This document shows, one piece after another, positions 6,001 to 7,529 of a DNA stretch of 11,656 bases; position 1 is the first letter of the stretch; every line of letters starts with the position of its first letter. Source of the DNA: an uncultured Planctomycetaceae bacterium (GTDB taxonomy: Bacteria > Planctomycetota > Planctomycetia > Planctomycetales > Planctomycetaceae). The stretch is from positions 1 to 11,656 of the forward strand of contig CAIJTL010001578.1 in the NCBI GenBank assembly GCA_903823545.1, in the 5' to 3' direction. The notes beneath the pieces are model-generated. The model was not told where the DNA came from. It did not search any database and saw only the letters and a list, made by a program, of their open reading frames with translations. A program made the translations under genes and the position numbers.

Positions 6001-6174
6001 TGGAGTGCTGCGGCTCGACGCAGCACTCCTTGGATCGCGGTCATCAGGCCACGAACATCACGAGAGTTGGTCGTGGCGAGCACCGTTCACGGCGTCTGCT
6101 CATGACGAAAGGCCAACAATTGTGGCCGTGTTACTCCGCATTGATGAAGGGCTGCGTCGAGCCGCAGCACTCCA
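6001..6174. repeat. MITE-like element with 24-base perfect terminal inverted repeats
   Basis: Positions 6001-6024 are the exact reverse complement of 6151-6174. The left end also folds on itself: GGAGTGCTGCG (6002-6012) and CGCAGCACTCC (6019-6029) form an 11-pair hairpin with a 6-base loop. The right end has a shorter hairpin (GCTGCG/CGCAGC). The interior holds a GGCCA...TGGCC hairpin near 6112-6128 and no credible gene. The element fills the spacer between the hydrolase and the amidohydrolase. The last bases of the right copy run straight into AAGGA, the ribosome binding site of the next gene. A miniature element or paired REP is the best reading. Confidence 0.7.
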
Positions 6175-6182: not shown

Positions 6183-7529
6183 ATGATGCAATCGCGTTTG
6201 AAAGCTCGCTGGGTCTTTCCTGTTGAACGACCGCCGATTGAAAACGGCATTGTCGAGATCGCGAACGGAATCATCACAGATGTGCGACGGGCGAAGCCTC
6301 AAGAGGTTGCCGAAGATCTCGGTGATGTGGCGATCCTTCCGGGGTTGGTCAACGCTCACACGCATTTGGAATTCAGTCACGTCACACAGCCGTTCGAGCC
6401 GTCGTTGCCGTTTACGAGTTGGATTCGATCGTTGATGGCCTATCGGCGAGAGGCGTTTGAAAACGACGCGGCCGCAAAGTCTGCTGCGATCGGAGCCGGA
6501 TGGCGAGAAGCCGCTGACGCCGGAACGACACTTTTGGGCGAGATCGCGACTGACGGCTGGTCGTTGGATGCGACACCTCTACGTAGCCATCACGCTCCGC
6601 GTGATGAGCCGTTCGCTTCAAGTTGCTACAGCCCAGGTGAAAATCATCGTCTGACTGAAGCGACCGGCTCGTCACGCGGAGCGATGACGGCTACGTACTC
6701 GCCTACATCGGGACCGCGCGTTGTCGCGTTTCGTGAGCTGATCGGATTGCGTTCGGAGAGCCAATCGCCACAAGTGGAGATTGCGGAACAGTGGCTGGCC
6801 TCAACAAACAACTTCGCGGCGCTGAGTCCACATGCGCCGTATTCCGTCGCCATGCCGTTACTCGTGGCACTTGTGGCGATCTCGAAGGAGCGGCACGTTC
6901 CTGTGGCCATGCATCTGGCAGAAACTCGTGCGGAATTGGAGTTCCTTGCAACTGGACAGGGCGAGTTTGCTGACATGCTGCGAGCCTTCGGGGCAATGCC
7001 AAGCAATGGCCTGTCAACGGGCCTTCGACCGTTTGATTACTTGCGAGCATTGGCACAATCACCGCGAGCGTTGATTGTGCATGGAAATTATCTCGCAGAA
7101 GACGAGATTGAATTCCTGGCCGCTCGTCCGCACATGAGCGTCGTCTATTGCCCGCGAACTCATGAGTTCTTCCGCCATGAACCGCATCCGTGGCGACGCA
7201 TGTTGGATCGGGGAGTTAACATCGCTGTCGGCACCGATGGTCGCGGCTCGAATCCAGACCTCAGCGTTTGGAACGAACTCGTGTTTCTTCGAAATCGCTT
7301 TGCTGACGTCTCGCCGAAGACGCTTCTTGAGATGGGGACCATCTCTGGCGCGCGAGCGTTGGGATTCGCTGACGATTGCGGAACACTAACTCCAGGCAAA
7401 CGAGCAGACTTGGTTGCTGTCCCCGTCAACGGCTTAGTCGCTGAAAGTGATCCACATGAGTTGTTGTTTGTGGATGGGCAGCGGATTGTCGAAACGCGGT
7501 TTGCCTCGGTTCATCAACCCGAAGCGTGA
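6183..7529 (+). CDS. Metal-dependent amidohydrolase/deaminase (SsnA/MqnX-like), with translated palindrome insert, 448 aa
   Basis: This is a cytoplasmic TIM-barrel hydrolase of the amidohydrolase superfamily, probably a deaminase. The metal ligand motif is V-N-A-H59-T-H61-L-E-F. Other active-site blocks are S-P-H217-A-P-Y-S, H244-L-A-E247-T, V-H300-G-N-Y-L, C-P-R-T-H327 and G-T-D352-G-R-G-S-N. The C terminus (G-T-L-T-P-G-K-R-A-D-L-V-A-V) returns to the usual small beta domain. The pattern of H-T-H-L-E-F with C-P-R-T-H is close to aminodeoxyfutalosine deaminase (MqnX) of the futalosine menaquinone route, but other COG0402 deaminases share it, so no symbol is given. Residues about 133-172 are encoded by a 118-base palindromic element (6580-6697) inserted between two strands, after G-E-I-A-T-D-G-W-S and before V-V-A-F-R-E-L-I-G. 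Function may persist if this is a surface loop. The start may be 6186. Confidence 0.85.
   Translation: MMQSRLKARWVFPVERPPIENGIVEIANGIITDVRRAKPQEVAEDLGDVAILPGLVNAHTHLEFSHVTQPFEPSLPFTSWIRSLMAYRREAFENDAAAKSAAIGAGWREAADAGTTLLGEIATDGWSLDATPLRSHHAPRDEPFASSCYSPGENHRLTEATGSSRGAMTATYSPTSGPRVVAFRELIGLRSESQSPQVEIAEQWLASTNNFAALSPHAPYSVAMPLLVALVAISKERHVPVAMHLAETRAELEFLATGQGEFADMLRAFGAMPSNGLSTGLRPFDYLRALAQSPRALIVHGNYLAEDEIEFLAARPHMSVVYCPRTHEFFRHEPHPWRRMLDRGVNIAVGTDGRGSNPDLSVWNELVFLRNRFADVSPKTLLEMGTISGARALGFADDCGTLTPGKRADLVAVPVNGLVAESDPHELLFVDGQRIVETRFASVHQPEA
6580..6697. repeat. 118-base palindromic element inside a reading frame
   Basis: The left arm (6580-6620) and right arm (6656-6697) are inverted complements with few mismatches and one indel. 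Both outer ends read TACGTAGCC (right end as complement), and the inner parts share TCGCTTCA. Within the left arm CATCACGC and GCGTGATG form an 8-pair hairpin around TCC, and the right arm has the equivalent. The same trinucleotide CTC flanks both ends (6577-6579 and 6698-6700), possibly a target duplication. The whole element is open in the amidohydrolase frame and encodes S-H-H-A-P-R-D-E-P and S-S-R-G-A-M among others. Confidence 0.75.

Follow-up and report, generated by a model that had tools for sequence, protein, structure and literature searches.

The DNA analyzed here, which we refer to as the window, is a stretch of 11,656 nucleotides (nt) taken whole. Its own genome is denoted G000, and the other genomes of the genus named below carry numbers from G001 to G010; P, L, and C numbers stand for proteins from database searches, fetched loci, and contigs, respectively. 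An amidohydrolase gene in the window is open without interruption from 6183 to 7529, and a long palindrome lies in frame within it. The features are as follows.

6183..7529, + strand: amidohydrolase gene, 448 amino acids, with an aminofutalosine-deaminase-like fold (open reading frame; PF01979, 1.4e-38)
6580..6697, + strand: REPIN, a head-to-head dimer of GTAG REPs, in frame, residues 133-172
6583..6607, + strand: left REP, type A, GTAGCCATCACGCTCCGCGTGATGA, identical (0 edits) to the search form
6669..6694, - strand: right REP, type T, GTAGCCGTCATCGCTCCGCGTGACGA as read on the minus strand, matching the form derived from it with 0 edits
6621..6655, + strand: variable loop separating the 41- and 42-nt arms
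6573..6689, + strand: stretch that must contain the 38-codon absence of the related protein P0002 (residues 131-168 or 132-169, inferred from protein)

A previous sequence-only reading had described near-perfect inverted arms of about 41 to 42 bases, open in the amidohydrolase frame as residues 133-172 and flanked by CTC at both ends, and each of these observations was borne out. Aligned over 42 columns, the 41-nt left arm (6580-6620) and the 42-nt right arm (6656-6697) show 38 matching positions, 3 mismatches, and a single gap. The resulting inverted-repeat score is 33, whereas 558 windows of this sequence and 500 shuffles scored at most 17 and 16, respectively. The isolated element folds as a long hairpin (-78.3 kcal/mol as RNA), with folding z scores of -9.7 as DNA and -11.5 as RNA and none of 200 shuffles as stable in either case. 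CTC is present at 6577-6579 and 6698-6700, although it is not a feature of the family, as other flanks surround the insert of the G001 orthologue. Inspection by eye of the flanks of 64 dimers, for which base make-up was counted, showed no consistent direct duplication of the target site of the kind known from classical MITEs.

Each arm opens with TAC-GTAG and holds a short self-complementary REP, which makes the element a head-to-head REP dimer and thus a REPIN as commonly defined (Bertels et al. 2021, PMC8049555). The left arm reads directly as GTAG-C-CATCACGC-TCC-GCGTGATG, and the right arm follows the same plan with one additional bulged T. As in the GTAG REP superfamily (Di Nocera et al. 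2013, PMC3733652), an unpaired GTAG lies at the foot of a short stem-loop, here with a stem of 8 and a TCC loop of 3 (superfamily ranges, 5 to 13 and 2 to 20), and head-to-head dimers predominate. The element likewise shares with REPINs (Bertels and Rainey 2011, PMC3116915; PMC8049555) the pair of inverted REPs, the highly variable spacer, the formation of a hairpin, and the many copies.

A search with the 118 bases, proposed by the sequence-only reading, showed the element to be multicopy in its own genome and to have family matches in all 12 genus genomes searched. In the own genome, 102 alignment pieces matched the element, and the REP was found 53 times at ≤3 mismatches, compared with 0 matches for the reversed pattern; the 25 bases of the left REP occur unchanged 9 further times, and other copies likewise match the right REP form with 0 edits. 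The window and 37 fetched G000 stretches contained 74 REPs, arranged as 28 head-to-head dimers, 4 TT dimers, and 10 single or cut REPs, and the corresponding numbers in 39 G001 stretches were 36, 1, and 5. A further 78 stretches from other genus genomes, drawn from the best matches listed, held 156 REPs and 75 head-to-head dimers; all stretch counts are samples and not full totals. The own genome is a draft (7.23 Mb, 1,707 contigs, 88% complete), and six of its contigs (C1071, C452, C880, C835, C657, and C115) have this REP at one end. The repeats therefore probably interrupt the assembly, which would make the copy numbers underestimates. The element had been taken for a mobile insertion of the REP/MITE type. 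Its nature as multicopy REP-type mobile DNA accommodated by a protein was upheld, but a GTAG REP or REPIN is a closer description than a generic MITE.

The best NCBIfam match of the host protein is the aminofutalosine deaminase family, at 141.6 bits and under the cut-off of 320, and Foldseek matches include the aminofutalosine deaminase structures 7lkj and 7lkk as well as other amidohydrolases. AlphaFold2, run with 94 aligned sequences, gave a confident enzyme model (mean pLDDT, 88.2; pTM, 0.87). Structure modeling had been suggested as a check, and within this model residues 130-173 form a low-confidence loop with pLDDT values of <50, the only other such segment being residues 446-448; as only 5 of the 94 alignment rows carry the insert, the low values there may partly reflect the thin alignment. 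The insert is placed between strands 115-122 and 179-186, and from the amidohydrolase fold, a segment following a barrel strand probably opens on the catalytic face. The added 40-residue loop is therefore best described as probably floppy or disordered in the model.

Comparison with orthologues, another proposed check, revealed that among 30 orthologues retrieved out of 58 matching genomes, those of G000 and G001 contain the element, while residues 133-172 are absent from the other 28. A scan of genome contigs with the window protein found one relative, L147. In a set of 121 proteins, made up of the window protein plus the top 120 hits of a database search, the loop spanning W126 to R179 is 12 residues long in 106 proteins, 10 to 16 in ten other noncarriers, and 52 or 54 in five, namely the window protein, P0001, P0003, P0004, and P0005. 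Relative to the 12-residue loop, the gain is 42 residues in the window protein, P0001, and P0004 and 40 in P0003 and P0005; in the latter two, this is exactly 40 codons (120 nt), which we read as a 12-residue loop split 7+5. As far as the searches reached, the element was not single copy, and no orthologues from distant phyla carrying the same loop without the palindrome were encountered.

The hairpin is very stable as RNA and foreign to the loop of this enzyme family, and one could thus imagine that the segment is missing from the mature product through removal from the mRNA or ribosome skipping. However, the frame is open in both the window and G001 and all five carriers are listed as continuous proteins, so that nothing forces skipping, and no RNA family from Rfam matched at its gathering score within the window. 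We regard this explanation as highly improbable.

The window and G001 inserts share codon, orientation, frame, a 61-nt spacer, and the A/T pairing of arms; the arms of the G001 insert carry 3 and 4 edits, and its frame is still open. A tree computed without the loop for 36 of the 121 proteins places all carriers within a clade of nine rows (support, 100/99), together with two proteins that bear remnant-like peptides, P0002 and P0007, and two members with plain 12-residue loops, P0006 and P0008. The window protein, P0001, and P0002 form a clade (100/100), within which the window protein and P0002 group together (98/89). At least two label changes are required on the tree, and none of 500 shuffles was as low. 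Either a single gain followed by losses or several gains would fit, and the plain loops of P0006 and P0008 inside the clade imply that the insert was lost completely or gained twice.

P0002 shares 97% identity with the window protein but is 38 residues shorter, and since it groups inside the carrier clade, it appears to descend from carriers. It reads DGWSLDA-TATYLPASGP where the window protein reads DGWSLDA-T...GAM-TATYSPTSGP, and its TATY corresponds to the end of the right arm, encoded in the window at 6687-6698. P0007 retains STHLRSHHA, which resembles the start of the left arm. Both remnants are known as protein only, and the TATY match comprises four residues; seven other proteins have loops of 13 to 16 residues without such a remnant match. 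From these peptides, the element seems to have been lost in frame in some lineages, leaving short remnants. The TATY of P0002 recalls asymmetric excisions reported for REPINs, after which ~6 bp at the end of the right REP stay behind (PMC3116915), but its left break would lie 4 to 7 nt outside the palindrome and not at the palindrome start.

Taken together, we consider it very likely that a genus-wide GTAG-type REPIN inserted in frame, probably once, and was then inherited vertically, with a drifting loop and some losses in frame. In this proposed history, the insertion would have occurred in an ancestor of several species, in the loop after the second barrel strand of the aminofutalosine-deaminase-like amidohydrolase. 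A type A or G arm offers two possible open frames, one of which gives the hydrophilic APRDEP, and the right arm in the window reads SSRGAMTAT; arms read in this way would add an extra, probably disordered loop with which the barrel still folds. After that, the insert would have been passed on vertically, its loop drifting under relaxed constraint and its arms remaining near the form of the mobile family, and some lineages would have lost it in frame, possibly by excision. A gain of enzyme function probably did not accompany these events. Of this history, the family membership, the in-frame position, the absence from most relatives compared, the grouping of carriers in one clade, and the remnant-like peptides are seen directly in the data, and the signs of movement are comparative, consisting of absences and remnants.

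Counterpoints to this history include the plain loops of P0006 and P0008, the failure to find a cognate transposase gene in the Y1 loci described below, and an intergenic copy in G001 (C168; L108, 2973-3084), which is 86% identical to the whole window element, compared with 70% for the orthologous G001 insert; independent insertion or gene conversion could explain this closeness. Read in the same frame, the loop of the C168 copy resembles that of P0004 in our own translation. Accordingly, the same codon might have been a hot spot, struck repeatedly and independently in different species through a target preference and not shared by descent. Besides the C168 copy and the two noncarriers within the carrier clade, this idea draws on the combination of near-identical arms with differing loops, as is seen among unrelated copies, and on weak base preferences (0.35 to 0.49) that extend for several bases around 64 dimers. 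However, no flank position of these dimers outside TAC/GTA reaches 50%, i.e., there is no strong target motif outside the element. The likeness of the window and G001 inserts in codon, orientation, frame, spacer, and arm pairing also argues against a hot spot, as do loop residues such as E[NT].RL, which by our own reading of a small sample are shared by four carrier lineages and absent from the C168 copy. We therefore judge repeated insertion unlikely and prefer a single insertion followed by descent.

The arms have decayed more slowly than their surroundings. Between the G000 and G001 amidohydrolase genes, 2 of 14.8 silent sites differ in the arms, compared with 192.6 of 301.2 outside them (Fisher P = 1.2e-4). 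In the gene for the Lhr helicase, which carries the element in G004 and G010, 0 of 60 arm positions differ between these genomes, compared with 199 of 689 silent differences elsewhere (P = 0.008). Such a pattern could mean that the insert is retained for a selected job, with the hairpin controlling expression or the loop changing the enzyme. In the 19 spacer codons, moreover, amino acid changes are fewer than silent changes per site (Fisher P = 0.013), and the frame is still open in four carrier lineages. Under block resampling, which is stricter, support is weaker: in the amidohydrolase, equal conservation was reached by 37 of 326 blocks when all positions were counted and by 7 of 326 when third positions were counted; for Lhr, the numbers were 2 of 838 and 24 of 838. 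Over 11 shared dimer sites, including the amidohydrolase and Lhr pairs, identical positions numbered 534 of 567 in arms (94%), 245 of 314 in loops, and 4,952 of 5,916 in flanks (84%). The arms exceeded the flanks in 9 of the 11 pairs, equaled them in one nearly identical pair, and fell below them in L084/L127 (86% versus 88%). As arms are conserved at shared sites in general, a role of the hairpin specific to this gene is not needed, and given the weak amidohydrolase block test, we rejected gene-specific selection on the hairpin. Close relatives without the insert and the low-confidence modeling of the segment likewise speak against a selected job, which we consider quite improbable. Gene conversion from other copies, hairpin selection, or reinsertion could each be a cause of the arm conservation.

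The element is not confined to the amidohydrolase, as in-frame palindromes were found in unrelated proteins of the genus. In G000, dimers lie in frame between or inside Pfam domains in a kinase-LRR protein, a kinase-FGE protein, the error-prone DNA polymerase DnaE2, and a DUF4175 protein; in G001, in MutY, AcrB, and a DUF7133 protein; and elsewhere, in Lhr (G004 and G010) and a PSCyt/PSD1 protein (G008). A dimer in another G001 protein stands just before a VWA match slightly under the cut-off, and L248, L250, L213, and L235 are weaker intragenic cases, in which a domain flanks the dimer on one side only or is missing altogether. Seven loci (SecA [L113], DUF1501 [L085], L098, L100, L072, L054, and L258) were excluded because in each the REP is close to the N terminus of a frame defined from stop to stop and might be upstream of the true start; L258 does not read APRDEP.

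In all of the in-frame cases listed, including the weaker ones, the 5' arm reads APRDEP, with variants in the decayed G001 amidohydrolase (APRAES), P0003 (APRDER), and P0004 (APREEP). The alternative frame, VAVTLRVT, was available in eight genes having a type A or G 5' arm without an indel (those for the amidohydrolase, MutY, Lhr, kinase-FGE, DnaE2, DUF4175, DUF7133, and PSCyt proteins). Among 88 readings of dimers off the intragenic list, the VAVTLRVT frame was open throughout in 41 and the APRDEP frame in 30 (both in 17, neither in 34). So weighted, the chance that eight of eight genes use APRDEP is ~0.001 by our own post hoc arithmetic.

Three genes of DNA repair or replication (mutY, dnaE2, and lhr) show patterns related to that of the amidohydrolase. 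The DnaE2 dimer is present in 5 of 10 genomes aligned (G000, G001, G004, G007, in which the left foot is lost, and G010), and G003, G006, G008, and G009 have other sequence at the site. G002 carries CTACGTAGCTGTCACGCGGAGCGTGACGGCTACGTT there, one REP that has feet on both sides; it is in frame and lacks 25 codons relative to the G004 form. At the DNA level, this remnant resembles the product expected if the center of a dimer were deleted. 'Double foot' REPs that could arise by such a deletion have been described along with tnpA-REP genes of subclass 2.4, which contain in-frame REPs in a peripheral variable region (PMC6006769). The G002 form and the in-frame position in such a region are thus similar, but the host gene in that system is the transposase itself.

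MutY inserts with the same arms and different loops were found in P0121, P0122, P0124, P0126, and P0127 among the 120 proteins listed, and the MutY matches in nine other genus genomes skip the insert segment. P0132, flagged by the MutY motif scan, has neither arm and was not counted. At the same MutY loop, P0123, P0125, P0134, P0135, and P0142 share an NPKRQRG peptide with a downstream SGYM.

The Lhr loop holds this REPIN in 2 of the 10 genomes aligned (G004 and G010), one or two copies of another palindrome, GGGCAGGTTTTCAACCTGCCC, in G006 and G007, and a third repeat in G003. GGGCAGGTTTTCAACCTGCCC gave 15 matches in 11 of 253 other fetched loci and the third repeat 7 matches in 5 loci, each compared with 0 in controls, although overlapping loci and sites matching on both strands inflate these counts. 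Two further loop palindromes stood not above controls (9 matches versus up to 16) or barely above them (12 versus up to 10). Other repeats or palindromes thus occupy loops that elsewhere carry the REPIN (Lhr loops of L270, L271, L272, L273, and L275 and the G009 DnaE loop, L301), and two of these alternative repeats are multicopy in the fetched loci. The different palindromes in the Lhr loop of different species count toward the hot-spot explanation considered above. The G009 Lhr sequence GACGGCTACGTTGCC was viewed as a possible tail remnant but not counted, because relatives without the insert are similar there.

It is possible, though somewhat less likely than not, that in this genus the flexible loops of four conserved enzymes (the amidohydrolase, MutY, DnaE2, and Lhr) are standing sites of turnover, in which REPINs and other palindromic repeats insert, persist through speciation, and leave in frame with footprints. 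Arms would be held near the mobile-family sequence, and removal would proceed by REPIN-style excision or collapse of the dimer. If true, palindromic mobile DNA would be a continuing and partly reversible source of loop diversity in proteins.

Rickettsia palindromic elements (RPEs) are palindromes translated in frame inside unrelated proteins. The element studied here shares this behavior, but the resemblance is functional only. The two differ in host phylum, and the intragenic repeats of Rickettsia conorii correspond to RPE-4 and RPE-6, which are grouped with CGTC repeats, the type for which that species is listed (PMC3733652), whereas the element here is of the GTAG type. The sequence-only reading knew of no characterized planctomycete equivalent. 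In part this needs correction, as GTAG REPs in Planctomycetes (Rhodopirellula baltica) were reported in 2013; the intragenic GTAG REPs reported at that time came from other phyla (PMC3733652). In-frame copies in unrelated proteins, the prominence of DNA repair genes, the presence in Planctomycetes, and the idea that loops tolerate intragenic REPs are thus common ground with that work (Di Nocera et al. 2013, PMC3733652). Size is no difference in kind either, since its dimers or groups code for 20 to 30 residues and its clusters for 43 to 82, compared with 40 for the dimer here. The passages of that paper considered here name no intragenic planctomycete case and give no orthologue history or remnants.

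Our literature searches, partly covering the best 25 of 86 and the best 10 of 317 results and with subscription papers mostly outside their range, returned no further report of planctomycete intragenic REPs or of protein excision remnants and no earlier account of shared inheritance, remnants, or slow arm decay of intragenic REPs. The element belongs to a known class of bacterial mobile DNA and has an unusually readable history. Intragenic REPs in the literature surveyed are mostly catalogued genome by genome, whereas the orthologues here suggest that the same element entered one gene, was inherited, decayed, and was lost, leaving remnants. This makes the exit of REPINs by excision, the resistance of arms to silent change at fixed sites, and the preference for repair genes suggested in 2013 testable.

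By analogy, we infer that the family may be mobilized by a Y1 transposase of the RAYT or IS200 type. Y1 transposase genes gave 91 matches in 11 of the 12 genus genomes. Unlike in REPIN systems with their RAYT genes, no cognate transposase was found beside this REP in 31 Y1 loci taken from these matches; the REP occurred at 5 edits in one locus and at 6 edits in seven, without a control for matches so weak. Of the four Y1 genes in the draft own genome (88% complete), two pass the IS200 cut-off and none the NCBIfam RAYT cut-off; L172 of G003, one of five such genes from other genomes put to the same test, passes the latter. Other-sequence GTAG palindromes occur in 6 of the 31 Y1 loci (L009 and L172 among them), 17 in total, compared with 4 in 30 amidohydrolase loci. 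The Y1 genes of L009, L165, L172, and L174 stand amid such palindromes in a REPtron-like layout; by score, L009 and L174 are closer to IS200 than to RAYT, and L165 matches IS200 only. The window also contains a second palindromic repeat, GGAGTGCTGCGGCTCGACGCAGCACTCC, as an inverted pair (6001-6029 and 6146-6174) that ends just before the amidohydrolase start at 6183; it has 19 matches at ≤3 mismatches in the own genome, one site being counted on both strands, compared with 0 for the reversed pattern.
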